Source of the DNA: Bremerella sp. P1
GTDB lineage: Bacteria; Planctomycetota; Planctomycetia; Pirellulales; Pirellulaceae
Length of the DNA stretch: 64,000 nt
Direction: 5' to 3'
Assembly (NCBI RefSeq): GCF_028748185.1
Contig: NZ_CP118164.1
Coordinates: 6,287,814-6,351,813 of the forward strand
The first letter of the stretch is position 1; each line of letters starts with the position of its first letter. Under the pieces are notes generated by a model. It searched no databases. It saw only the letters and a program-made list of their open reading frames with translations, and was not told the DNA's origin. Below, in pieces: positions 5,418 to 35,653 of this stretch. The translations under genes and the position numbers were made by a program.

Positions 5418-6599
5418 CTATTTGATCGTTTCGATCACAAACGCGTTCGCATTGTCGGTCGAACGGATCGGCAGTTCTGACGCCACAATCATTCTGTCAC
5501 CCGGCACAACCAGTCCCAGCTGTTTGGCGATTGAAGTCGTCGTCGCCAGCATCTCGGCCGTGCTATCCGGCGTTTTCATTTGCCGAGAGACCACGCCGTG
5601 GTACAAGCCCATCTGACGGACGGTCGTCGCGGAGTCAGAAAGCCCCAGCACCGGACAATCGATCCAGTTCTTGGCAATCAGCCGAGCCGTCATGCTTGAG
5701 TGCGAGTACACGCCGACAGCCGCGATTTCCTGCATCTTGAGAATGTGACGAATCGAGTACGCCAACGCAGCCGTATTCGGCGGCTGGCCAAATCCGACCT
5801 TAATGGGCCGATCCGTAATCTCCATCAGGCTCTCGGTCGCGATGACCGTCTTCGAGACAACCTCGACCGCCTGAGTGGGGTAGCTGCCCGTTGCCGTTTC
5901 ATCCTTCAGAAGAATGGCATCGGCATGGTCGAAGACGACATTCGCTATATCGAAGACTTCGCCATTGGTAGGCTCCTTTGACTGCAACATGTTGTTCAGG
6001 ATGCCGCGACCCACAAGGCATGGTTTGGCCCCAATTTGACATTGCCGGGCAACCATCTTTTGCATCACGGGGATCGACCACGTTTCCAGTTCCGAAAGCC
6101 CCGTTCCCGTTACGACGACCCCGTCAGCCGCCTGAATAATGCTGTCGATGTCTCGATAATTGGCAGCATGATCGAGTCGGGCCATCACCGCGGCTTCGCT
6201 GCCAGCTTCAGAAAGGACCTTGCGGGCCTCCGATATGTCATGAGAACCACGGGGGACCGAGATCAAAACGTAGTCCACCTCGTGATTGGCAATCCAACTT
6301 ACGAGATTCGGGGCAAGATGCGTCTCACCACCGTTGGAAGCCTCCTCGCCCGGGACGTCGACCAATAGCGTGATCGGCTGCTGGGCCATTCCTTCAACTT
6401 CCCGAACTGCCTCGTGCCGCTCATGCCAAATAGCTTCGTTGTCTTGTGACATGTCCAGCCGGAACGCATCGGCTCCGGCTCGGACAAGCTGCATGAGCTC
6501 GCCCGGTCGCGATGCGCTAGGGCCAATGGTCGCAGCGACCTTGGTCCGCTTCAGCATTGCCGAGGTCGTCGGCTGAAGAATAGGGTTTGGCTCAACCAA
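5418..6599 (-). CDS. Degenerate pyruvate-kinase family protein
   Basis: A 393-aa relative of pyruvate kinase, shorter than the usual 470-500 aa because the B domain is missing. N-terminal TIGPS (residues 25-29) and a late LLKDETATGSYPTQAVE match the family. Key sites are changed: the NFSH loop reads DMSQ, the KIEN catalytic lysine region reads RLDH, and the ARGDLG metal/substrate loop reads VTGTGL, losing the Mg-binding Asp. It is therefore unlikely to make pyruvate. The start is a TTG with GGAAGG nine bases upstream; an ATG at 6557 is the alternative. A regulatory or altered-substrate role is only a guess. Confidence 0.75.
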   Translation of the reverse strand: MVEPNPILQPTTSAMLKRTKVAATIGPSASRPGELMQLVRAGADAFRLDMSQDNEAIWHERHEAVREVEGMAQQPITLLVDVPGEEASNGGETHLAPNLVSWIANHEVDYVLISVPRGSHDISEARKVLSEAGSEAAVMARLDHAANYRDIDSIIQAADGVVVTGTGLSELETWSIPVMQKMVARQCQIGAKPCLVGRGILNNMLQSKEPTNGEVFDIANVVFDHADAILLKDETATGSYPTQAVEVVSKTVIATESLMEITDRPIKVGFGQPPNTAALAYSIRHILKMQEIAAVGVYSHSSMTARLIAKNWIDCPVLGLSDSATTVRQMGLYHGVVSRQMKTPDSTAEMLATTTSIAKQLGLVVPGDRMIVASELPIRSTDNANAFVIETIK

Positions 6600-6653
6600 A
6601 GTGGGTTACCTTCCGTGTTCGTTTAACCGTCATGCCACGCGCGGTGGATGTTC

Positions 6654-6686
6654 AAAAACAGACGCGAAACTCCATTGTCTCGCGTC
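6654..6686 (-). terminator. Terminator after the minus-strand sulfatase
   Basis: Inverted repeat GACGCGA (6661-6667) / TCGCGTC (6680-6686). On the minus strand it is followed by TGTTTTT. It lies just beyond the sulfatase stop at 6720. Confidence 0.6.
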
Positions 6687-6719
6687 CGTCGTGTTTATCA
6701 AATTGACCCAAGCTTCGAC

Positions 6720-8216
6720 TTAACGAATCTTTTCATCGGGCAGTTCCGAGCCGATCCCCTGGTCGATGGGCATCTTATCGGTGGCGGCAGTCAGTCCCAC
6801 CGATTCCATCTGCTGGGACAGTTCCTGGCGTAGCTGTTTGACCAGCTGAGCATGTTCCGGCTTTTCTGCCAGGTTGGTCCCTTCGCCTGGGTCCGCTTTC
6901 AGGTCATACAGTTCTGCCATGTGACGATCGGGCGAGCCGTCGCCATGAGGGTAGCGAATGAACTTGTAGCGGTCGGTTCGCAGTGCCCGGACATTGGGAG
7001 TGTACGGAAACTGCTTTTCGTAATTGTAGTAGTATAACCACGACTTCCGCCAATCGTCGTCACCGGCGGAGGCCAGCTTTGCCCACGATTGGCCGTGAAT
7101 GTCATCAATTTGCTTGGCGCCCGCCAGTTCGATGAGGGTCGGAGCCATATCGACCGTCAGCACCTGCTGATCGAGGGCCTTACCTTGCCCAAGCTTGGGA
7201 TACCGCACGATCAGCGGCACGCGAATGCTCATTTCGTGGGCCGTACGCTTGTCGACCATGCCATGCTCCCCTTCGAGCAGCCCATTGTCGCCCATGAATA
7301 CGACAACGGTATTATCCAGCTGGCCCGACTTATCGAGCCAGTCATACAGGCGTCCCATACTATCGTCGATGCTGAGCACGGTTCCCCAGTAGGCGTGCAC
7401 CATGTTCTCGAACGCCTTAACCCCTTCAGGGCTGTCATCCGGGAAGTCCTTACGCCAATCGAAGAGGGGACCATAAATGCCGTGCCAGGTATAGAGACGC
7501 TTCTTCATCCATTTCGGATTGTCGTCCAGGTCGAAAGCTGTGGCGGGATACTTCACTTCGACATCGTCGAAGACGTGCTCATACTTTGGCTCTGGAAAGT
7601 AGAAGCTATGCGGAGCTTTCTGGCCGATCATCAGGCACCAAGGCTTATCACCATGATCCTTCTCGAGCCAGTCAATCGCCATGTCGGTGACGACGTGCGT
7701 GTAGTAGCCTTCGACTACTTTGGCACCTTGGCCGTTAATGTTGAATGCCGTATCGAAGTACTTGCCTTGCCCCTTATGGGTCACGAACCAGTCAAAGCCA
7801 GGTCGAGGTTCGTCGTTATCCTCGCCCATGTGATACTTGCCGATGTACGCCGTTTCGTACCCGGCGTCTTGCAGACGCTTGGGGAACGTCGCCATCTCGG
7901 TCGGGAATTCCGTGAAGTTATTCGTCACGCCATGGGCATGGGCGTAAAGGCCCGTCAAAATCGAAGCTCGGCTAGGCGAGCAAAGCGAGGTCGTGCAGAA
8001 CGAATTGTTGAAGAGGATCCCTTCTTTGGCGATCTGATCGATCCGGGGGGTCTTCACGTGCTCGCTGCCTAAGCATCCGACGGCGTCGGGACGAAGGTCA
8101 TCGCACAATACGAATAAGATATTCGGCTTCTTTACCTCATCCGCAGCTTTGGCAAGCGAAAGCGGGGTCATTAGCAGACAGGCGAGAAGAAGAATGAAAC
8201 GCACGAAGTTCATCAT
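6720..8216 (-). CDS. Secreted sulfatase (iduronate-2-sulfatase-like)
   Basis: About 498 aa. The chosen start (8216) gives a clean signal peptide ([15 protein letters not shown], cleavage near AKA-AD) and has GAGGA eight bases upstream; a longer in-frame reading begins at 8279 but adds a poor N-terminus. The sulfatase core includes the metal-binding pair in [13 protein letters not shown], the formylglycine motif CSPSR in [13 protein letters not shown], and [15 protein letters not shown] with later metal ligands. Planctomycetes carry many such enzymes for sulfated algal polysaccharides; the exact substrate cannot be read. A terminator follows. The closest relative in the window is the protein at 50136. 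Confidence 0.9.
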
Positions 8217-9490: not shown

Positions 9491-9492
9491 AG

Positions 9493-9579
9493 CGGAAGGC
9501 ATGGGATTTGAACCCACATGGCCATGATGACCGCACGGTTTAGCAAACCGGCCCGACGAACCGTATTCGGCTACCTTCC
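9493..9579 (-). tRNA. tRNA-Ser (GCT)
   Basis: 87 nt. Acceptor GGAAGGT pairs with GCCTTCC, discriminator G as in serine tRNAs. Anticodon loop TTGCTAA gives GCT. There is a long class II variable arm and a T-arm GTGGG-TTCAAAT-CCCAT. CCA is not encoded. Confidence 0.85.
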
Positions 9580-9589
9580 CAATTAAAAG

Positions 9590-9665
9590 TGATCAGAGTG
9601 GGAGTCGAACCCACAAAGTCACCACGTTCTCACCGTGGCCGCTTTTCCTGTTTGCGTACCTGATC
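9590..9665 (-). tRNA. tRNA-like gene, anticodon GAG (Leu by codon), short variable arm
   Basis: 76 nt. Acceptor GATCAGG/TCTGATC with discriminator A, anticodon stem CCACG/CGTGG, loop GTGAGAA (purine at position 32), perfect T-arm. The anticodon GAG would read CUC/CUU (Leu), but bacterial tRNA-Leu has a long variable arm and this one has only about 7 nt. Identity is uncertain. Confidence 0.6.
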
Positions 9666-9687
9666 CTGGATATGTGCTACTAATGAG

Positions 9688-9761
9688 TGGCTCAGGCGGG
9701 ATTCGAACCCACAACGTCCCCGGTTTTTAAGTCCGAGCGGTCAACCAATAGCCACTGAGCC
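9688..9761 (-). tRNA. tRNA-like gene, anticodon TAA (Leu by codon), atypical
   Basis: 74 nt. Acceptor GGCTCAG/CTGAGCC with discriminator A, T-arm GTGGG/CCCGC. The anticodon loop is embedded in GGACTTAAAAACC, with an A-A clash at the loop base. The D-arm pairs poorly and the variable arm is short. TAA is the most likely anticodon. Confidence 0.5.
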
Positions 9762-9770
9762 AGTCTTGAG

Positions 9771-9844
9771 TAGCTCGAGTGGGATTCGAACCCACAGCAT
9801 CCCTCGGTCTGAACGAAGGTGGTCTGCCAGTTGCCTACCGAGCT
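9771..9844 (-). tRNA. tRNA-like gene, anticodon CAG (Leu by codon), short variable arm
   Basis: 74 nt. Acceptor AGCTCGG/TCGAGCT (A1-U72 start), discriminator A, anticodon arm CTTCG-TTCAGAC-CGAGG, strong T-arm. The D-stem is weak and there is no class II variable arm. Confidence 0.55.
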
Positions 9845-9856
9845 ATTCGTTTAAGG

Positions 9857-9940
9857 CGGAAGCCGTGGGACTCGAACCCACAAACGACGCAGTCGTCAGC
9901 TGTTTTCAAAACAGTGTCCTCATCCAGCCGGATGACTTCC
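9857..9940 (-). tRNA. tRNA-Ser (TGA)
   Basis: 84 nt. Acceptor GGAAGTC/GGCTTCC, discriminator G, anticodon loop TTTGAAA giving TGA, and a long variable arm with stem GACGAC/GTCGT. A normal class II serine tRNA. Confidence 0.8.
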
Positions 9941-9947
9941 AAAATAG

Positions 9948-10020
9948 TGACCCGTGTGGGAGTCGAACCCTACCTGCCCGGCTTGAAAGACCGGTGACCT
10001 CACCCGAAGTCGAACGGGCC
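9948..10020 (-). tRNA. tRNA-Glu (TTC), damaged T-stem
   Basis: 73 nt. Acceptor GGCCCGT/ACGGGTC, D-stem GAC/GTC, anticodon arm CCGGT-CTTTCAA-GCCGG giving TTC. The T-stem TAGGG/CCCAC has two mismatches, unlike its neighbours. Confidence 0.7.
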
Positions 10021-10063
10021 AATAACATTGGCAGCGCAATGACGTTCAGCCACCGCGCAGAAG

Positions 10064-10135
10064 CGGACTGGGAGGCGCTCGAATCCTCGTCTGCGGTTCT
10101 TCAAACCGCCGCTACACCGTCTCAGCTACCAGTCC
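10064..10135 (-). tRNA. tRNA-Phe-like (GAA), element attachment gene
   Basis: 72 nt. Acceptor GGACTGG/CCAGTCC, anticodon arm GCGGT-TTGAAGA-ACCGC. The discriminator is G and the variable loop has only 4 nt, both unusual for tRNA-Phe. The T-stem has an A-G clash beside the loop. Its 5' half (from the anticodon arm to base 1) is repeated at 35611-35653, the other end of the phage element, so the 5' half now present probably came from the element. Confidence 0.65.
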
Positions 10136-10136
10136 A
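10094..10136 (-). repeat. Left attachment repeat (inside tRNA-Phe-like gene)
   Basis: Matches 35611-35653 except for CA versus TG in the D-loop. An uninterrupted 21-bp identity covers the anticodon arm (10094-10114), where strand exchange probably occurred. Confidence 0.9.
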
Positions 10137-10705: not shown

Positions 10706-11401
10706 ATGATTGATCGAGTTAAACGACGGTTCGAGCAACTAGCGGCCACAGCAGAAGAGATAGAGGATTCAAAGGACTTTGGGAGCGATAGTGTGCCCAG
10801 CAACGTACAGTCACTTACTGGCCCTACGAGGATGACAACCGTTCGGACATATCTAATTGACTTGCCCAAAGTACTTCAGTGGTATTCATCCGTGCGAACG
10901 CTCTTGGTTCAAGTGTTTGGCGACACTTCCCCTCTCTATACCGACTTTGAAAGGAAGCATGATGGTACTAGGCACGAAGTATTCGACTATCGGAAAGCGG
11001 TATTTTTCGCTGCCAAAGATGACTACGAAAACGGCTTTGCAAACCTTCGAGAATTGATCAGTGCTGATGTCTTCTCAGACGAACTAGAGCAAGCTGAAGA
11101 ACTTCTTGCGGCAAGTTACAAGACTCCTGCGGCGGTTGTCGCTGGTACGGTTCTTGAAACAACCATTCGTTCTCTGTGCGGCAAGCACGGCATTCAGAAT
11201 GATAGGCGTACCAAGCTCGATACGATGAACAGTGAGCTTGCTAAGGCAGGTGAGTACAACAAAACCAAAGCGGATCAGGTTCGAGCTTGGGCGAAGATTC
11301 GCAACAGTGCCGCACATGGACATGCAGATGAGTTCACTGAGACGGACGTGAAACTCATGATAGAAGGTGTCCGTGACTTTGTTGCCAACCAATTGTCATA
11401 G
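10706..11401 (+). CDS. HEPN-like protein A (tandem pair)
   Basis: A 231-aa helical protein. The C-terminal 120 residues carry KIRNSAAHG, which fits the R-x4-H catalytic signature of HEPN RNase domains, and resemble DUF4145-type proteins. The N-terminal half differs from that of its downstream twin, while the C-terminal halves are nearly identical. Start MIDRVKRRFEQL matches the twin's MNDRLKKRFQEL, which supports both starts. It is on the plus strand, opposite to the tail genes, and not part of morphogenesis. A defence or toxin role is inferred from the HEPN motif, not shown. Confidence 0.65.
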   Translation: MIDRVKRRFEQLAATAEEIEDSKDFGSDSVPSNVQSLTGPTRMTTVRTYLIDLPKVLQWYSSVRTLLVQVFGDTSPLYTDFERKHDGTRHEVFDYRKAVFFAAKDDYENGFANLRELISADVFSDELEQAEELLAASYKTPAAVVAGTVLETTIRSLCGKHGIQNDRRTKLDTMNSELAKAGEYNKTKADQVRAWAKIRNSAAHGHADEFTETDVKLMIEGVRDFVANQLS

Positions 11402-11414
11402 GTTCACAGCGAAT

Positions 11415-12074
11415 ATGAATGATCGACTAAAGAAGCGGTTTCAAGAACTATTGAATGAAGCGAATCGCATTTATGATCGGTATCAACGTAGCGAATCGCC
11501 TAATTCGCACATCGAAGAGTCAGACTGGCGGTTAGGTGAGGAGAAGTGGTTCGCTTCAGTTGATTCCTTGATTGCAAAGGTTTTTGGCGAGCAATCTCCC
11601 CATCGGGAAAAGTTTGCTGAGATTCCTTCAGGTTACTCCAAGGATGATTCTGTCTTTCGATCTCGTCTAGCCATCTTCCAAGCAGCAAAGGAAGACTACG
11701 ATTGTGGGCTAACTGACTTGAGGGCTTTGATCAGTGCTGATGTCTTTTCGGACGAACTAGAGCAAGCTGAAGAACTTCTAGCCGCTAATTACAAAACCCC
11801 TGCGGCGGTTGTCGCTGGTACAGTTCTGGAAACAACCATTCGTTCATTGTGTGACAAGCATGGGATACAGAACGATAGGAAGACAAAGCTAGACACGATG
11901 AATAGTGAGCTTGCCAAGGTAGGCGAGTACAACAAAGCCAAAGCGGATCAGGTTCGAGCTTGGGCGAAGATTCGCAATAGTGCAGCACACGGACACCCTG
12001 AAGAGTTCACCGAGACGGACGTGAAACTCATGATTGCCGGTGTCCGTGACTTTGTTGCCAACCAACTGAACTGA
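11415..12074 (+). CDS. HEPN-like protein B (tandem pair)
   Basis: A 219-aa paralogue beginning 14 bases after protein A, so probably co-transcribed. The last 115 residues differ from A at only about ten positions and include the same KIRNSAAHG motif. The N-terminal 100 residues share only scattered positions (for example VFGxxSPxxxxF). The longer in-frame start at 11367 would overlap gene A and break the start match. Recent duplication with diversification of the N-terminal part is the simplest reading. It converges with the 12079 gene, 4 bases away. Confidence 0.65.
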   Translation: MNDRLKKRFQELLNEANRIYDRYQRSESPNSHIEESDWRLGEEKWFASVDSLIAKVFGEQSPHREKFAEIPSGYSKDDSVFRSRLAIFQAAKEDYDCGLTDLRALISADVFSDELEQAEELLAANYKTPAAVVAGTVLETTIRSLCDKHGIQNDRKTKLDTMNSELAKVGEYNKAKADQVRAWAKIRNSAAHGHPEEFTETDVKLMIAGVRDFVANQLN

Positions 12075-13817: not shown

Positions 13818-15151
13818 GCTTTCTTGATCCAGTAAATTGCTCTTGCAATCAATTCACGGAAACCACTTCCGGTGGTGTCAAAGCTGGTGGATCAGCATCA
13901 GTGTCAGATACCGTTGTGCGTGGTGGTGTTGTCCTTGGTGGTTCTGCTCTGGTTGCTGTACCTTCTCAGGACGGTGATGGCTACATCTTCGTGTACCCTC
14001 TTGATGCTCAGTACGATGGCACCAGCGGTGAAGTTGATGATGTTGCTTCCGGCTTAGACGGTACGGCTGGTGGACTTGAGTATCCAACTCTTGATGATGG
14101 TGTCTACTGTCTTGGTTCCAACAACTTTGCAGACAACGAGTACATTTCACTTCCGGCAGACAATCTCAGCGGCAACTCCTTCAGTGTGTCAGCTTGGGTG
14201 AAAATCAATGGATACTACCGTGAGCGTGTGTGGTACTCACGAGGCTTCAACACCGTCGGTGGTGATCAGTGGAGCATTCGATTTGGACACAGTGTCATCA
14301 ATAACGTTTGGGCTTCAGTCCAAACGGCTGATGGTGAGTTCCACTGCTTCAGTTCTGGCACAATGCAACGTGAGCGTTGGTATCACGTGGCGTGCTCTTT
14401 TGACGGTTCCTCGTTGAAGGTGTACATCAACGGTGTACTTGGCGGAACAACTGCTGTCACTGGTTCCTTGGTGGCACTTGGGAACACTTCGTACATTGCC
14501 CGATACAATAATGGGATTGGCTTGAACGATGGAAATCTTCAAGAGCTTCGTATGGTTCCAGATGCCAAGCCAGCAGCGTGGTTCCTTGCAGAGTACGAGA
14601 ACTTCTGTGCTTCAGGTTGGTACTTGGTGTCACCAACGGAGACGATCTCACCGTTCAGCACTTACAACGAGCTTGCTGCTGGTGGTGTGGTTGTGGCTGG
14701 TGTGGCGGTTGAAGAGTATGTGGAAGCACCAAGCACAATCACTCTTACGAGCAACTTCACTTCTGACTTCGATGGTTGGAATGCTTTCCGATGGAATTGG
14801 TTGTCTACTGGCGGGCAGTCTGGCGGTTACGTGAGAAGCTTCGATGCGGACAACAACAGCACCAAGACACTCACCAGAACTGTTGAGATTGCTTCCGGTG
14901 GTGGCACGATCAGCTTCTACTTCCAGAGACAAGGTGAGTTCATTCCCGGCTTTGCTTACTACCCAAGACTATCCAGCAACATCGATGGAACCATTTGGGG
15001 AACCACTGGCAATCCAAACTCTTGGACTCTGGCGGGACCATTTGCGTTGTCTGCTGGTACACACAACTTGAACTTCAATTGTGGATACCAAGACAGTTCC
15101 CAATGGAGAATCGGTATTGATACCATCACGATCACGAACGTGGTTCCTTAA
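13814..15151 (+). CDS. Tail-fibre-like protein with LamG domain
   Basis: A 445-aa protein. Residues 15-50 continue the GGVxxGG repeats of the upstream gene. Residues 95-240 form a concanavalin A-like LamG domain (FSVSAWVKIN, WYHVACSFDGSSLKVYING). One more repeat comes near residue 290. Residues 305-445 form a second jelly-roll-like domain with FDGWNAFRWNW. It probably binds surface glycans. DUF2341 and LamG are often fused in one protein; here a 4-bp overlap separates them. No slippery heptamer is in register at the junction, so translational coupling is more likely than frameshifting. Confidence 0.65.
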   Translation: MSFLDPVNCSCNQFTETTSGGVKAGGSASVSDTVVRGGVVLGGSALVAVPSQDGDGYIFVYPLDAQYDGTSGEVDDVASGLDGTAGGLEYPTLDDGVYCLGSNNFADNEYISLPADNLSGNSFSVSAWVKINGYYRERVWYSRGFNTVGGDQWSIRFGHSVINNVWASVQTADGEFHCFSSGTMQRERWYHVACSFDGSSLKVYINGVLGGTTAVTGSLVALGNTSYIARYNNGIGLNDGNLQELRMVPDAKPAAWFLAEYENFCASGWYLVSPTETISPFSTYNELAAGGVVVAGVAVEEYVEAPSTITLTSNFTSDFDGWNAFRWNWLSTGGQSGGYVRSFDADNNSTKTLTRTVEIASGGGTISFYFQRQGEFIPGFAYYPRLSSNIDGTIWGTTGNPNSWTLAGPFALSAGTHNLNFNCGYQDSSQWRIGIDTITITNVVP

Positions 15152-17644: not shown

Positions 17645-19861
17645 TTAGAAAGTCACCACCGTTGGTGGTGCTGTCAGCAACCGGAGAATTGGCGGCAACT
17701 GATTCAACGTGTTCAACTGCTGCTTGTTGATCTCCGTGAGTTGTCTCACTGGATCTTGCTTAGATGTCCGAGATTTGTTCCTGAGTATGGCCTTGTATGC
17801 AGCATCAGAACCAAACTCGGCAAGCTCGGCAAACTGCTGTTGCCCAAACGTATCTTCTTGAATCTTGGACAATGCAATCTTGTACTGCTCAGCACTGAGC
17901 AAGCCTGAGTCAAAGTATTCTTTGAGGATGTTCCCTTGCTCCTTGAATCGCTCGATTGGAGTCTTGGCACCTTCGATGGCATCCTTCACCGTATCAGGGA
18001 GAATCTTGAGGCTTTGCAAGCCTAGTTCCTCGTCCGAGATTAAACCGGCATCCCGTAGCTCAAAGAGCTTCTTGAACTCTTCTTCAAACGATTGAAGGGG
18101 CGTCTTCAGTCCTTCCTTGATCTTCTCAGCAGCTTCACGCCAAGCTTGTGGAATCTGGTTGGTGATGCTGTACGTGATCTTCCCAATGGTATCGGCAAAC
18201 GTGTCTTCTACTTCGTTAGCCGAGTCTTGAGAACCATTCGAGAACATCCCATAGATTTCATCTCTACGTTGATTCATGAAGCGTTCATAGTCTTTGAACA
18301 ATCCTTGGCGTCCATTGAGCAATGCTTCAAGTTGTGCGTTGGCTTCCTTGGTGGCTTGGCTGAACTCTTGGAAGTAAGGGTAGTTCTTCTCAGCTTCAGT
18401 GAAATTGTCCCACTTCGTACCCTTGAAGATTTCGCCAAGGGGATCTTCTGGATTGAACTGTCGATTGTCAGCCCAAGGGAAGATGCTTGAACCTTGGATG
18501 TTCTCAAGAATCGTAGGGATGTTGGCAATGGTGTCCCTGAAGCCTTGTACATAAAGATCAATCGTTGCAAAGAACTGTCTGAACTTGAGCGTCATGTCAT
18601 CCATGAAGCCATACACGCCAACCTTCATTCCAAGCCATGCAACATTCCAGATTCTTTCCAGATTGTTCAGGGCGAACTCCGTGCTGATTAGGAAGTCCAC
18701 AAGGATTTGCTTGGCGTTCTCAAAGGTGAAGGTGATGTCCACACCCAACATCTTCAAGTATTTGGACACCTGCTGAATTGGATCGATGAATGAAGCAAGC
18801 TGCATCAACACCTTGTTCATGGAAAGCTGTGTATTGACGGCTTGTCTTAGGATTCCAAACCATTCTTTCATTCCACTGGTGATGTCCTTGAGTGACGGAA
18901 TCCAATTAGTCAGAGCACCATCTTGGTTCAGCACCTTGTACCAGTGCTGTACATACCCAATCGACAACTTCACCTGAGCGGTAAACTCTCGTAGTGGCTG
19001 AAGGAATTGCTTCAAAGAATCCACGTTGGACAAAGTAGCAATAGCATTCTTTAGGATGTCCTTGATGCCCAATGTGTCGATCAGTTCAGCACCAAAGTCC
19101 TTGCCAACTTGTTTGATTCTTCCAATTAAGGTGCTCCACAAACCAAGCACAGTGCCACTCTGCTTCTTCATCAAGTCTGCAAAGTCACCAGCGGCAAGAG
19201 CTTCAAGAGCTTTGCTGATCTCGACAAAGCCAATAGTCCCCTCACTGACAAGTTCTCTCACTTCCTCGTTGGTGACACCAAGTTGCTTGGCCAATTCCTT
19301 GGTGACGTTGATACCACGTCCCTGAAGTTGGTTAATGTCTTCTGCAAAGACTCTTCCTTGTACCCTGATCTTCCCGTAGATTTCAGCAAGTTCGTCCAGT
19401 GGGGCACCGATACCAGCGGCAATGTTGCCAAGTGCGTTCAGAGTTGGCAGAAGGTTCTTGGCTTCCACACCGAAAGCAAGAAGCTGGCGTCCGGCTTGCT
19501 TCACTGGTTCCGGTTCAAAGGGTGTGACATCAGAGAACTTGTTCAAGGCAGAGATGACTTGCTGAGCTTCCTTGGCAGAACCTACGAGAACTTCAAAGGC
19601 AACAGCAGTTTGCTCAGCTTCAGCAGCAAGTGTGATTGGCCCAATTACAGAAGCTTGGAGAGACTTGGCAGCAACCACAACAGCACCAATGGCCAGTGCA
19701 ATTTTTGAAAAGGCTGTGACGATGTTGGTGCTGGCTTGCTTGATGCCATTACTGAAACCAGTGATTTCGACACGAGCTTCACGGAATCCTTGAGTGAGCT
19801 TTCTGGTGCTCACTGTCATCCCGATACTGATGGTTCCAACTCTCGAATTGTTTCCCGGCAT
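17645..19861 (-). CDS. Phage tail tape-measure protein
   Basis: A 738-aa protein that sets tail length and is ejected with DNA. Residues 45-75 form a hydrophobic segment (IALAIGAVVVAAKSL). Residues 80-230 match the tape-measure N-terminal domain (EQTAVAFEVLVGSAKEAQQV, GRVFAEDINQLQGRG, GTIGFVEISKAL). The rest is long amphipathic helix. AGGAG lies six bases before the start. The chaperone genes directly upstream are the usual neighbours. The implied tail is medium length for a siphovirus-type particle. Confidence 0.9.
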   Translation of the reverse strand: MPGNNSRVGTISIGMTVSTRKLTQGFREARVEITGFSNGIKQASTNIVTAFSKIALAIGAVVVAAKSLQASVIGPITLAAEAEQTAVAFEVLVGSAKEAQQVISALNKFSDVTPFEPEPVKQAGRQLLAFGVEAKNLLPTLNALGNIAAGIGAPLDELAEIYGKIRVQGRVFAEDINQLQGRGINVTKELAKQLGVTNEEVRELVSEGTIGFVEISKALEALAAGDFADLMKKQSGTVLGLWSTLIGRIKQVGKDFGAELIDTLGIKDILKNAIATLSNVDSLKQFLQPLREFTAQVKLSIGYVQHWYKVLNQDGALTNWIPSLKDITSGMKEWFGILRQAVNTQLSMNKVLMQLASFIDPIQQVSKYLKMLGVDITFTFENAKQILVDFLISTEFALNNLERIWNVAWLGMKVGVYGFMDDMTLKFRQFFATIDLYVQGFRDTIANIPTILENIQGSSIFPWADNRQFNPEDPLGEIFKGTKWDNFTEAEKNYPYFQEFSQATKEANAQLEALLNGRQGLFKDYERFMNQRRDEIYGMFSNGSQDSANEVEDTFADTIGKITYSITNQIPQAWREAAEKIKEGLKTPLQSFEEEFKKLFELRDAGLISDEELGLQSLKILPDTVKDAIEGAKTPIERFKEQGNILKEYFDSGLLSAEQYKIALSKIQEDTFGQQQFAELAEFGSDAAYKAILRNKSRTSKQDPVRQLTEINKQQLNTLNQLPPILRLLTAPPTVVTF

Positions 19862-25039: not shown

Positions 25040-25600
25040 TTATGTACGCTTCAACTTTTGGATTCTCTTCTGAGTCCCTTCAAGTTGCTTCCAATTTTTG
25101 TAGCTGGTTTCAGCACTACGCTTCTCAGTCCCTTTGTATGCAGGGTTGGCAACGATACTGATTTCCACCAAGTCCAACTTCGTGATCGTCCTCACGTCCT
25201 TGCTTCCTTCTCGGTGCCACTTGTCTTCACGTGGCACAAAGCCAAACGAGCTTCCTCGTAAGTCACCACGATCTACCTTGGCCTTGATCCTACGGTGATC
25301 TTCATCATTGGCATCGAAGGGAATACTGTACTTCAGCCCCTTGGCGTCTTTGCGTAGGTGAAGCGTGTTGGCTGATGTGCGTCCAAGAAGAATGTCTGGA
25401 TTGTGCTCGTAGAATGCCATGACATCTTTTTCGTTTTTGATTGCATCATCAAAAGCGGTTGGATCAATACGCTCAAACGTACCTTGCCAAAGTTCGTACT
25501 CGGTGCCGGGTGTGCCATCGTAGAAGACGGAAGCATAGCCGGTGAAGCCTTCATCACCCCTGTATCTCAATTCAATGTTGTTGTTTCTGGTTTCCATCAT
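25040..25600 (-). CDS. HK97-family prohead protease
   Basis: A 186-aa U35-type serine protease that cuts the capsid delta domain during maturation. Family marks: FTGYASVFYD, FYEHNPDILLGRTSA (catalytic His in the EHN stretch), GDLRGSSFGFV (catalytic Ser) and VEISIVANPAY. The start overlaps the portal stop (ATGA). The length is complete. Confidence 0.9.
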   Translation of the reverse strand: MMETRNNNIELRYRGDEGFTGYASVFYDGTPGTEYELWQGTFERIDPTAFDDAIKNEKDVMAFYEHNPDILLGRTSANTLHLRKDAKGLKYSIPFDANDEDHRRIKAKVDRGDLRGSSFGFVPREDKWHREGSKDVRTITKLDLVEISIVANPAYKGTEKRSAETSYKNWKQLEGTQKRIQKLKRT

Positions 25601-27174
25601 GCCCCCAATGCCTGAATGTATGTAGGAATGTTTTCATACTGGCGTTGGAACACTTTTTCCAAGTCAGCACGGCTCGTGGCCTGTAGCTCTTCCTTCAACT
25701 CTGACAGCCACTCATCAACAAAGGTGTTAGCTCTGGTTCCAAAAGCTGGCTCTAGCTGACTCGTGGCAATGTCAGAGTGTTCTTCCCTCAATCGCTCTAG
25801 GTACTCTTGCCAATCATCCTTCTTGGCGTGAGCTTCTACTGATTTCGCAACACGCTTCACGAGCTTCCTCACCACCGTATCAGTGAGCTTGGACAACCTG
25901 TTGTCCGGTTCTTCTACGTCTTCGCCTGGTGCTTGTACCTCGTCCATCGGTGCTTCCACTTCTGGTTCTGGCTCAAACATCTTTGCAACATTTGTAACCA
26001 TGAAGAACTCTTGGCTTTTCTCAGTTGGACGGTTCAAGAGTTCACGAGCTTCTTCCCAACTCAGCAAGCCATTGCTCACCTGTTGGACAATCAAGTCAAT
26101 TTCCTTCTGTGCGTCCGTCTGGATCAGTGCTTTTCGCTCTGCCTCAATCCAGTGTGTTCCACGGAGAAGCTGGCGATTGGAGCACAGCTTGAGAGTTAGT
26201 TCTTGATCCAACTGAGTAAACCAAGGGCCAAGCGTCTGGCTTACAAGGTTCTGTTGATCCATCTCAAGTGATTTGTAGCTGGTATTGGTTTGAGAGTTCA
26301 CCCAAGATGCCGGTAGATTTAGAGCATTGGCCACAGCAACCAAGTCTGCTTCTCTACTCTCAATCCACTGTCCTTCATTGTTGGCTACCGTGATCGGTGT
26401 AACCTTCATGCCGGGATAGATCAGGGCAGGGCGTTGGCTGTTTTCAACTCCCTCGTGTGCTTCCTTCCACTTCTCCTTGAAGTCCTTGAACTTCTCAGCA
26501 TTGTTGGCAACGTGATCTGACAACTCGATCACCACCGATGGTTTCCCGTTGTTCTTGAAGTACCTTGCTCCATATTCGATGGTGGCAAGTCCAAGTCCTA
26601 AACTCGTGCGTAGAAGTTGGAAGAGCGGTTCACCTGATACACCACCGTTACGGCTCAAGCTTCTGATGTGAATTACATCATTGGGACTGATTCTGAATTG
26701 GCGGTTTCCCAAAGTTGTAACGTAGGCAAGTGGGCCATTGCTCTTGTCTGGATAGGTTGCATCAGGATCAAGCCACAACAGTTCTGTTGGGTTGCCAAGT
26801 GCGTCCCTCATAATCATGGAATAGCCGTTGCCATAAATGATTGCATCGTGAAGAAGAGATTGCTTCCACACTATAGGCGTAAGGTTCTCGGCTGGTTGTT
26901 GAGTCAGAAGCCAGTGTGCCGGATGGTTCCGTGCAACAGTGCTGTTGTTGCCGTCAGCCTTGTACACCTTGAAGGGGACTTGGCCGATGGAACCACAGAT
27001 GGTGTCCAGCCCCTTTTTCACGGCTGGATTACCAAGGATGCTTTCAGCGGTGACTCGGACACCAGCGGCGTTGGCTGTTCCCTTGAGGATGTCTTCAAGG
27101 TTGAAGCCCATGAACTCAATGCCATCTCCAACAGACAGTGAGCGTGATTCGATTTCTTGTGTTACGTGCAGCAT
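25597..27174 (-). CDS. HK97-family portal protein
   Basis: A 525-aa protein forming the dodecameric DNA channel. VKKGLDTICGSIGQVPFKVY, GNGYSMIMRDALGNPTELLWL and a wing/stem region (PGMKVTPITV, LVAVANALNLPASWVN) are typical. The C-terminal 120 residues are a charged extension (EEPDNRLSKLTDTVVRKLVK) longer than in HK97. TAGATA ends four bases before the ATG, which lacks a ribosome site. Confidence 0.9.
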   Translation of the reverse strand: MLHVTQEIESRSLSVGDGIEFMGFNLEDILKGTANAAGVRVTAESILGNPAVKKGLDTICGSIGQVPFKVYKADGNNSTVARNHPAHWLLTQQPAENLTPIVWKQSLLHDAIIYGNGYSMIMRDALGNPTELLWLDPDATYPDKSNGPLAYVTTLGNRQFRISPNDVIHIRSLSRNGGVSGEPLFQLLRTSLGLGLATIEYGARYFKNNGKPSVVIELSDHVANNAEKFKDFKEKWKEAHEGVENSQRPALIYPGMKVTPITVANNEGQWIESREADLVAVANALNLPASWVNSQTNTSYKSLEMDQQNLVSQTLGPWFTQLDQELTLKLCSNRQLLRGTHWIEAERKALIQTDAQKEIDLIVQQVSNGLLSWEEARELLNRPTEKSQEFFMVTNVAKMFEPEPEVEAPMDEVQAPGEDVEEPDNRLSKLTDTVVRKLVKRVAKSVEAHAKKDDWQEYLERLREEHSDIATSQLEPAFGTRANTFVDEWLSELKEELQATSRADLEKVFQRQYENIPTYIQALGA

Positions 27175-31459: not shown

Positions 31460-31873
31460 TCATTCCTTCACCTGAAGCCAACTAAGAACTGCCTTTGTCC
31501 AATGGCGTCCATCGTATGGGCCAAGCCTCTTGAGTTGTCCCTTGTCATAGATGAGGAAACTGAAGCTGATGATGTCTTTGGTGGTGTCAATTGCTCGATC
31601 TTCTGATACTACAATCTTTGCAAGAGCGTAGGCTTGCTTGCCTTTGCCATTGCGGGTGAAGTTCTCACCTAAGATACGTTGGCCGTTAGTCAACTCGTTG
31701 AGGTTGTCTGTCTTGCTGGATAGTTCAACCAGAAGCAAGCGTCCTGCGTTGTCTAAGATCATGTCTCCATCACTTGGCGTGATCTTCCTTGGAAGATGTT
31801 CTGTCCAACCACTGTGATCCAACAGCTTGGCCTTGATGTAAGCATCAAGGTGCTTTATTTCTCCACGTCCCAT
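31460..31873 (-). CDS. Possible PD-(D/E)xK-fold protein
   Basis: A 137-aa protein. SDGDMILDNAGRLLLVELSSK has the spacing of a restriction-like nuclease core (Asp, then Glu-x-Ser/Lys), followed by a Gln in TNGQ. The Lys of the usual E-x-K is shifted, so catalysis is uncertain. The start lies five bases after TACATA, suggesting the leaderless mode. It is divergent from the structured RNA. Confidence 0.45.
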   Translation of the reverse strand: MGRGEIKHLDAYIKAKLLDHSGWTEHLPRKITPSDGDMILDNAGRLLLVELSSKTDNLNELTNGQRILGENFTRNGKGKQAYALAKIVVSEDRAIDTTKDIISFSFLIYDKGQLKRLGPYDGRHWTKAVLSWLQVKE

Positions 31874-31925: not shown

Positions 31926-31949
31926 TTACAACTTGACTAAGAGTTGTAA
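31926..31949. promoter_or_regulatory. Operator-like dyad between divergent units
   Basis: TTACAACT (31926-31933) and AGTTGTAA (31942-31949), a perfect 8-bp dyad with 8-bp spacer. It sits between the 31873 gene and the structured RNA and could control both. Confidence 0.5.
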
Positions 31950-31975: not shown

Positions 31976-32004
31976 TTGTAAAATTGAAGTCGAGATGCTA
32001 ATAT
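31976..32004 (+). promoter_or_regulatory. Promoter of the structured RNA
   Basis: TTGTAA (31976-31981), 17-bp spacer, TAATAT (31999-32004); start expected near 32010. Confidence 0.5.
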
Positions 32005-32007
32005 ACT

Positions 32008-32580
32008 CGTGCCTCTTGGAGACATCTGAGAAGGAAGTCAAGTGTTGAACGGCTTGGCGGGTTTCTGGAACTGTATCACGCTTCAGTTCTTGTGCTGGCA
32101 ACAAAAGCCCCAATTTGGCACTGCTGAAACCTTTGGCAAAGTGTGAACTTCTTGTTCCGCCTCACCGGGGAAGTTCCGGTAGGTATGGGCGAACGATAGC
32201 CGAGAACATACTTGAGTTGAGTCTATCGTTACAACTTTGGTGACAAGGTTGTCTGTCTACGGGCAGTTAAGGGAAAGAGGACGTGGAGTTGCCCTGAGTA
32301 CACCGGAGTATCTTAGTTGTCTTGTACAACTGAGTCAGGTGTAAGCAACGCTATACTAAGGAACAAAGCTCTTGAGCTTTGAGGTTGTCTTGTCTTCTTT
32401 GGAGATAAGGCAGGGAAACCCCAGCAGGATCAACCACCTTTTGGTTGGGCAGGGAATACCAGAGTCCAGTAGTTGTGGCACTGTGCATAGCAAAAGCGAA
32501 GCAACCAGAGCGAACAATCGAAACACTCCCTTACCTTCTTCCGTGGCAGCGAGCGATCTCAGACGAGGGTGGTACGTACT
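32008..32580 (+). ncRNA. Candidate giant structured phage RNA
   Basis: About 570 nt without a convincing ORF. Stems seen: 32192-32199/32223-32230 (8 bp), 32261-32265/32290-32294, 32299-32304/32338-32343 enclosing the 9-bp 32312-32320/32326-32334, 32364-32370/32375-32381 with a CUUG tetraloop, 32389-32395/32403-32409 (7 bp), 32431-32436/32442-32447, 32164-32168/32176-32180, 32131-32134/32138-32141, and a closing GUGCC/GGUAC of the two ends. Several stems need G-U pairs that work only on the plus strand. Size and phage context resemble ROOL/GOLLD RNAs; a group I intron or a new class are alternatives. I could not match a family consensus from memory. Confidence 0.7.
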
Positions 32581-32612
32581 TATAGAAAGTTTTAGATATA
32601 GGGCGTGGCAGT

Positions 32613-32804
32613 ATGGAAACCACCAGACAACAGAAGACAACCTACCCAATCCTCAGCAACTATAGAGTGAAGTGGTTTGTTGGCAGGACACTTAATAGAG
32701 GAACCGTCAAGGAAGGATACAAGGAAAATGGTATCCTGATGCTCAAAATCATTACAGACGATGGGAAGACAATCACGCTGCCTTCTAGCAGGCTTGCCGA
32801 CTAA
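32613..32804 (+). CDS. Small beta-rich protein downstream of the structured RNA
   Basis: A 63-aa ORF: YRVKWFVGRTLNRGTV and GILMLKIITDDGKTITLPSS read as a small beta barrel. A weak GGGCGTGG lies before the ATG. No terminator separates it from the RNA, so both may share one transcript. Family unknown; an RNA- or DNA-binding barrel is one possibility. Confidence 0.5.
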   Translation: METTRQQKTTYPILSNYRVKWFVGRTLNRGTVKEGYKENGILMLKIITDDGKTITLPSSRLAD

Positions 32805-32864
32805 AGAAGTGTAATGCTAGAATCTCGCCGTTTGAAGGTTATTGAACGCCAAAAGGATTTACCG

Positions 32865-33134
32865 ATGAATCACTTTTTCAAAGTATTTGCGGCAACCGCA
32901 CAAGACGTAATCTCAGCATATCAGGGCACGGACGAGAAATGTCAATTAAATGTTCCGCCCGATGATGAAGCCAGCGGTTCATGTCCCGTACCTGACGGCA
33001 TGTCGCCTGAGGAGATGGAAAATTGGGTGGCCAATAGGTTTTCTCAACTCGCAGTTAAGAATATCGGCAATGCGATTATCGTTCGCTTGAACGTCCCAAC
33101 TCTCACCGCCACTTACTGGCTCATTCCACAATGA
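32865..33134 (+). CDS. Small hypothetical protein, second after the RNA
   Basis: An 89-aa ORF from the ATG at 32865, preceded by AAAGGA with good spacing; the in-frame ATG at 32814 has none. It holds a Pro/Cys-containing acidic middle (NVPPDDEASGSCPVPDGM) and beta ends. A terminator follows directly. Unknown. Confidence 0.5.
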   Translation: MNHFFKVFAATAQDVISAYQGTDEKCQLNVPPDDEASGSCPVPDGMSPEEMENWVANRFSQLAVKNIGNAIIVRLNVPTLTATYWLIPQ

Positions 33135-33135
33135 A

Positions 33136-33168
33136 AAACCCCTCTAATTCAATCGAATTGAGGGGTTT
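33136..33168. terminator. Bidirectional terminator
   Basis: AAACCCCTC...GAGGGGTTT with an AATT-ATCG-AATT core, between the convergent plus unit and the 33193 gene. Confidence 0.75.
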
Positions 33169-35610: not shown

Positions 35611-35653
35611 CGGTTCTTCAAACCGCCGCTATGCCGTCTCAGCTACCAGTCCA
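35611..35653 (-). repeat. Right attachment repeat (orphan tRNA 5' half)
   Basis: Copy of the tRNA-Phe-like 5' half (anticodon arm to base 1), 41/43 identical to 10094-10136. It is probably the host's original 5' half, now cut off from the rest of the gene. Confidence 0.9.

Follow-up and report, generated by a model that had tools for sequence, protein, structure and literature searches.

What kind of element fills the roughly 570 nt between the divergent gene sets of a prophage in the 64,000-nucleotide stretch of DNA analysed here (the window)? The segment in question, positions 32008–32580 of the plus strand, had been singled out in a first-pass annotation as a candidate giant structured RNA with its own promoter-like site, and its membership of the large phage RNAs ROOL and GOLLD, or of a new class, had been left open. 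Sequence comparison shows that it matches a conserved structured RNA of about 570–585 nt in two distantly related prophages; very probably it is a genuine RNA with an elaborate fold. We regard it as nearly certain that this RNA forms a new structured RNA family; granted that, a free-standing mode of action is somewhat favoured. For the whole explanation, namely a conserved new RNA with its own promoter and a compact fold that would serve as a free-standing, scaffold-type phage RNA, we estimate a probability of about 0.6.

A counterpart in a second prophage

DNA searches returned no homologue in the genome of origin, in 98 related genomes (52 of which gave matches at E <= 1, the non-self ones all short and the best at E 0.02), in phage records or in plasmids, where one 5% match in Prevotella was taken as chance. 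Because these searches were fruitless, relatives were sought through the protein encoded at 25597–27174, a portal protein by position only, and the interval between integrase and terminase was then read in the prophage so located (L096; G736:C5). Its contig appears to be WGME01000011.1, from the metagenome-assembled genome of bacterium isolate RI_361, of another family in the same class. Between the two prophages, protein identity is 33% for the terminase, 30% for the 25597–27174 protein, 36% for the head protease, 30% for the capsid, 40% and 32% for the proteins designated 22752 and 22366, 29% for the HNH protein and 28% for the integrase.

A full-length homologue of the RNA lies at about 8444–7862 on the minus strand of L096, in the same place and orientation, that is, between integrase and terminase and pointing away from the structural genes. 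Smith–Waterman alignment joins 32020–32580 to 8432–7864 with a score of 427 (349 identities over 525 aligned positions, with 80 gap positions), compared with a mean of 109.6 (standard deviation 10.8, maximum 147) for 200 dinucleotide shuffles of L096, and with 132 for the runner-up among 38 loci over 6 kb, a ranking that omits L115, the second copy of the L096 contig. BLASTN limited to L096 recovers 48 nt at 87.5% identity (E 1e-7), and the 3' block GGGTGGTACGTACT (32567–32580, plus strand) is identical in both copies.

As the first-pass annotation had stated, the stretch holds no convincing open reading frame (ORF): all six frames carry 4 to 7 stops each, and the longest stop-free run is 74 codons. 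A conserved coding pattern was looked for in the MAFFT alignment with L096 and not found, the mismatches being spread evenly over the three codon positions (86, 90 and 83 of 184, 184 and 182), and only 1 of the 12 gap runs has a length divisible by three. The absence of codon phase, together with the non-triplet gaps, argues for a plus-strand RNA and against a protein gene or pseudogene, a reading that was rejected. A 97-residue ORF beginning with TTG (32372–32665) was also set aside; it has no PHROG or Pfam family, and by eye its start is absent from L096.

The promoter-like TTGTAA-17-TAATAT is present at 31976–32004 of the plus strand, with a start expected near 32011, and at the aligned place the homologue has TTCAAA-17-TATAAT, with 10 of 12 matches. 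The window site itself, counted by hand, has 8 of 12 and falls under the scan threshold of 9 of 12.

Consensus fold and covariation

Three alignments of the two copies were tested: an ungapped MAFFT block over helices H1–H3, a local alignment of H10, and a sequence-only global alignment of the whole RNA. In the block and H10 tests the helices, not the alignments, were picked with both sequences in view; in the global test none was picked. On the sequence-only alignment, the alifold consensus fold reaches −89.5 kcal/mol against −55.2 ± 6.4 for column shuffles, none of the 200 being as low (z −5.4), and contains 24 two-sided pairs, those in which both bases differ between the copies, against 13.2 in the shuffles, 2 of 200 of which reach that number. 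On its reverse strand this alignment folds to −51.7 against −46.9 ± 5.6 (40 of 200 as low; z −0.8), a contrast between strands that argues for a plus-strand RNA. With MAFFT the consensus fold is −81.05 against −53.2 ± 6.5 (0 of 100 shuffles as good), with 34 two-sided pairs against 24.3 (1 of 100 as high), and with a structure-aware aligner the energy is −85.9 against −49.3 ± 8.0, beyond all 100 shuffles.

The same picture emerges pair by pair. In the 88 columns of the ungapped H1–H3 block, all 20 pairs are kept and 12 are two-sided, a result equalled by none of 500 shuffles, with 1 to 3 for slid versions of the block; three outer pairs of H1, out of register through a one-base bulge, are omitted from this test. 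Of the 107 pairs assessed on the sequence-only alignment (12 stems available to the window copy, together with H3x and PK1, which were found by scanning the two copies), 71 are kept and 17 are two-sided, compared with 34–48 and 1–5 after sliding by 1 to 4. When 94 pairs are placed on the whole-region MAFFT alignment, 77.6% of cells are paired and 13 pairs are two-sided, against 32–47% and 3–8 when slid. A hand alignment of eight shared hairpins contains 66 pairs, of which 31 are two-sided, 6 one-sided, 29 unchanged and 0 broken; these hairpins were selected for existing in both copies, and the count illustrates and does not test. When cut out and folded, these eight hairpins yield matching stems in the two copies, although not every one beats its shuffles.

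The individual helices, all on the plus strand, begin with the H1 hairpin (32012–32034), which keeps a GACA loop, folds alone in both copies, and has 9 of 9 pairs with 6 two-sided in the hand table (for its inner part in the ungapped block, 6 of 6 with 4 two-sided). In the same block, the H2 hairpin (32037–32058; loop (C/G)UUG(A/G)ACG) keeps 7 of 7 pairs, 3 of them two-sided, and the H3 hairpin (32067–32090; 10-nt loop) 7 of 7 with 5 two-sided; on the sequence-only alignment a gap enters the H3 stem and 3 of 7 pairs stay. The H3 loop may take part in a candidate pseudoknot, PK1 (32077–32145), in which 32077–32083 would pair with 32139–32145. Both copies can form the 7 pairs of PK1, of which 5 are two-sided when the loop is shifted by one; on the sequence-only alignment all 7 hold and 3 are two-sided. 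Any such contact arises in 9 of 500 shuffles, and one with as many changes in 4 of 500. A candidate helix H3x (32060–32131), in which 32060–32065 and 32126–32131 would close H3, has 6 pairs in both copies, 5 two-sided, and is not significant alone, an open scan of shuffles yielding many such helices.

Farther along, the H6 hairpin (32160–32183) is seen in the hand table and in cut-out folds, the sequence-only alignment keeping 6 of its 8 pairs, and H7 (32192–32230), the stem 32192–32199/32223–32230, exists in both copies, with 6 of 6 pairs two-sided in the hand table but 2 of 8 kept on the sequence-only alignment. The H8 hairpin (32231–32252) keeps its GUGA tetraloop and 8 of 9 pairs on that alignment, and is likewise found in the hand table and cut-outs. 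H10 (32299–32343) is a two-part hairpin that preserves a GGAGUAU/UCA internal loop and a CUUGU loop; its local alignment holds 12 of 12 pairs with 5 two-sided, three inner pairs being omitted as out of register, like the outer pairs of H1, and on the sequence-only alignment its outer part keeps 2 of 6 pairs and its inner part 8 of 9. The H13 hairpin (32431–32447), from the hand table and cut-outs, keeps a CCUUU loop, is 1 bp longer than its L096 counterpart and is without covariation. A possible long-range helix within 32265–32536, the inverted repeat 32265–32274/32527–32536, is weak: the sequence-only alignment retains 6 of its 9 pairs, none of them two-sided.

The stems that the first-pass annotation had listed, 32312–32320/32326–32334 inside 32299–32304/32338–32343, 32192–32199/32223–32230 and the CUUG-capped 32364–32381, can all be found in the window, and the large structured plus-strand RNA that it proposed is supported by the consensus fold, by the absence of coding phase, and by the covariation seen when the comparison with homologues that it had recommended was run on one homologue, L096. 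The CUUG-capped stem fares poorly in that homologue (1 of 7 pairs kept, 1 broken, 5 gapped), as does the proposed pairing of the 5' and 3' ends. Of the 7 pairs in the inner part of this end pairing, 32025–32031/32557–32563, the sequence-only alignment keeps 2, neither of them two-sided, and the 5' arm of this part falls within the 3' arm of the conserved H1; the outermost part, 32008–32013/32571–32576, keeps 5 of 6, which says little, four being unchanged and one one-sided. For the most part, this comparison does not support an RNA closed by its two ends. A further argument for the strand, from 15 G–U and no A–C cells in hand-picked helices, was dropped because only plus-strand standard pairs had been admitted to these helices, A–C being excluded beforehand.

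Several observations weigh against this interpretation. With two known copies only, each covariation is a single comparison. On the sequence-only alignment 24 of the 107 pairs are broken and 12 lie in gaps; that alignment is poor for H3, H7, the outer part of H10 and the CUUG stem and good for H2, H8, PK1 and the inner part of H10, the H3 and H10 pairs being in register on their local alignments. H10 alone is equalled by 23 of 500 shuffles. On the structure-aware alignment 25 pairs are two-sided, an unexceptional count (shuffle mean 23.5; equalled or exceeded in 38 of 100 shuffles), and the open helix scan is only moderately discriminating, with 248 matches against a shuffle mean of 169 and maximum of 217 and a largest two-sided count no higher than that of the shuffles. 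The single-sequence folding energy is ordinary: the stretch has z −1.95 on the plus and +0.30 on the minus strand, and 28 of 86 background prophage windows that do not overlap it (both strands counted; mean z −1.45, standard deviation 1.31) reach z <= −1.92. The difference in z between strands is less common, being equalled at 3 of 45 other prophage positions. Lastly, single-sequence nhmmer did not report L096, and BLASTN over the pooled loci missed it, probably because of the heuristics and scoring of these programs.

Family membership and gene neighbourhood

Rfam 15 was searched at the gathering threshold over the window and, with permissive filters and E up to 5, over 1001 bases around the window copy and 901 around the L096 copy. 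That Rfam holds ROOL, GOLLD and OLE models is taken from an excerpt of PMC12286853, whose models came from Rfam. No family reaches threshold in either copy. The matches set aside were RAGATH-32 and alpha_tmRNA, at 19.2 and 12.7 bits against gathering scores of 41.8 and 50, and, on the other strand of L096, GABA3 and snoTBR17, at 15.4 and 12.9 against 57 and 40. Since neither ROOL nor GOLLD is matched and nothing comes near a family threshold, a new family is the better reading of the membership that the first-pass annotation had left open. By this covariance-model test the window RNA is like ROOL and GOLLD in kind and a member of neither; many covarying helices and no coding pattern, which mark large structured non-coding RNAs of phages, are found in the two copies.

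ROOL and GOLLD are described in the excerpt of PMC12286853 as RNAs of phages and prophages, of unknown function, that often lie near tRNA islands and form cages, the structures of which have been solved. A ROOL copy in L. salivarius measures 520 nt (PMC5643018; the name ROOL comes through PMC12286853 and does not occur in the excerpt of PMC5643018). Like ROOL, the window RNA is a large, highly structured RNA encoded in a prophage; unlike ROOL, it has no tRNA island beside it, the nearest tRNAs found being at 9492–10135, 22 kb off, and its host is probably a planctomycete. GOLLD, the expression of which rises during lysis, shares the large size, the complex fold and the prophage or phage location, but many of its members exceed 800 nt (same excerpt of PMC12286853). 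OLE RNA, according to literature excerpts, is similar in size (about 600 nt) and in its intricate fold, acts in complex with proteins, and differs in coming from Gram-positive extremophiles or anaerobes; its covariance model, too, matched neither copy. Among the titles and opening lines of abstracts listed by searches of an open-access library, no large RNA of planctomycete prophages was found.

Searches for further members brought up no third copy. A search with the terminase for close prophage relatives found none, the viral contigs giving four loci at 24–28% and genome contigs being searched as well; the 25597–27174 protein and the integrase in viral contigs, the small ORF protein in viral contigs and phages, and the 31460 protein in 241 genomes and in phages likewise yielded no close relative. 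Sixteen regions around distant terminases, scanned with model R1, gave no match; 8 of the 16 were mapped, and by eye most look like another type of element. Patterns built from shared DNA motifs returned 0, 7, 5 and 2 stretches in viral contigs (IMG/VR) and 5 in genome contigs, among which only the already known contig (L115) scored well, the others reaching at most 13.9 bits; these exact-motif scans found no member in IMG/VR and, across 84,980 species genomes, recovered only G736. Models R1 (170, 241 and 392 genomes) and R2 (58 genomes and 45 sources) gave, beyond the window genome and G736, weak matches of at most 24.7 bits. Five of these, when displayed, skip the covarying hairpin and were dropped, and five further ones scored 16.5–20.8 bits. 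These searches covered overlapping genome sets, applied strict filters and capped the scored candidates at 16, 11 and 7 per genome, so that a distant member could have been missed.

The prophage itself (10094–35653, about 25.5 kb) is integrated in tRNA-Phe: its ends are a 43-nt att-like direct repeat (10094–10136 and 35611–35653, 95% identical) that lies within tRNA-Phe 10063–10135, and in 1-kb steps its interior has a GC content of 0.46–0.52 and the DNA outside 0.52–0.61. Integrase, terminase large subunit, HNH endonuclease, tape measure, major head protein and head maturation protease genes were recognised, and the flanking host genes, with PSCyt1 (planctomycete cytochrome C), PSCyt2 and PSD1 domains and sulfatases, fit a planctomycete host. 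The candidate RNA lies between leftward late genes, the first at 31460–31873, and a short rightward unit that consists of the RNA, a 63-residue ORF (32613–32804), a second small ORF (32865–33134) and a terminator-like inverted repeat (33137–33167). The second ORF, without a PHROG match, would encode 89 residues from an ATG behind AAGGA, a start chosen by eye (the ORF list gives 32814–33134); the inverted repeat, also identified by eye, would serve both directions and was not flagged by the terminator scan.

Just upstream of the promoter-like site, a wider-spaced TTACAA..TTGTAA palindrome occupies 31926–31949 (0.03 expected in the prophage), and L096 carries five such palindromes in 19 kb (5519–5533, 7196–7210, 9699–9713, 14385–14399 and 17712–17726; shuffled expectation 0.005). 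These palindromes may be operators for a regulator of the prophage. Among the prophage proteins searched, a subset of the ORFs in 10094–35653, none was recognised as a repressor or replication protein; in L096, a 273-residue protein at 6389–7210 looks helix-turn-helix-like by eye and has a weak PHROG match only. Near the prophage end, two tandem ORFs at 10706–12074 have weak HEPN-like matches below Pfam cut-offs and are accompanied by a 300-nt repeat (88% identical); they would represent a duplication, perhaps of defence or toxin-like cargo.

Mode of action

We propose that the RNA would be transcribed from its own promoter just upstream of H1, would fold compactly into many helices, with conserved tetraloops and a probable pseudoknot, and would have a free-standing role in the phage cycle, as is thought for ROOL and GOLLD. 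It would most likely serve as a structural scaffold or assemble with itself, possibly in partnership with the small barrel protein encoded next to it. The candidate mechanisms would rank, in falling order, as free-standing scaffold or self-assembling RNA, leader of the small ORF, and ribonucleoprotein with the barrel protein.

The leader reading, in which the RNA would be a very long structured 5' leader controlling translation or transcription of the small downstream ORF in cis, draws on the junction between the two. No terminator was found there in either prophage, which speaks against a free-standing RNA and fits a leader equally; both ORF starts share GATATAGGGCG, the start codon and ACCAGACARCAGAA; and a 21-nt inverted repeat, 81% complementary, would allow 32382–32402 to pair with 32623–32643 at the ORF start, a shorter version seeming by eye to be present in L096. 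Through such pairing the transcript could switch from one role, RNA or leader, to the other. A cis-regulator would, however, be expected to keep its gene, whereas the 63-residue protein of the window and the 72-residue protein of L096 give no BLASTP alignment, and the retention of the RNA beside such unlike proteins was counted for the free-standing mode. The length and complexity of the RNA are also unusual for a leader, and we hold this reading to be unlikely. It is less likely still that the RNA belongs to a ribonucleoprotein with the downstream protein, as OLE RNA does with its partners, although the barrel gene is a co-directional neighbour and its product is predicted to be a small SH3-like beta-barrel (mean pLDDT 80.7) whose matches are of tudor, chromo and BAH type and include a KOW domain.

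The remaining readings concern the identity of the element. A far-diverged ROOL or GOLLD overlooked by the Rfam models would agree in size range, prophage location and a structure with a candidate pseudoknot (excerpt of PMC12286853), but the permissive search around both copies makes this very improbable. Least credible of all is a DNA element (replication origin, packaging site or operator region) or a decayed gene with incidental stems; a divergent intergenic region of a prophage, adjoined by an operator-like palindrome, would suit it, but a consensus fold on one strand only, compensatory changes and the absence of codon phase speak for RNA. Free-standing action of a new RNA stays our preferred explanation. 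An extended version, in which planctomycete prophages would encode a giant RNA class forming RNA-only particles like those of ROOL and GOLLD, with the co-transcribed barrel protein loading, capping or regulating the particle, is speculative and, in our judgement, rather unlikely.

Few RNA classes of such size are known. An independent family, probably from a different phylum of bacteria, suggests that phages have resorted repeatedly to large structured RNAs, and it adds a system whose conserved neighbours, position and expression can help to find the function of such RNAs.
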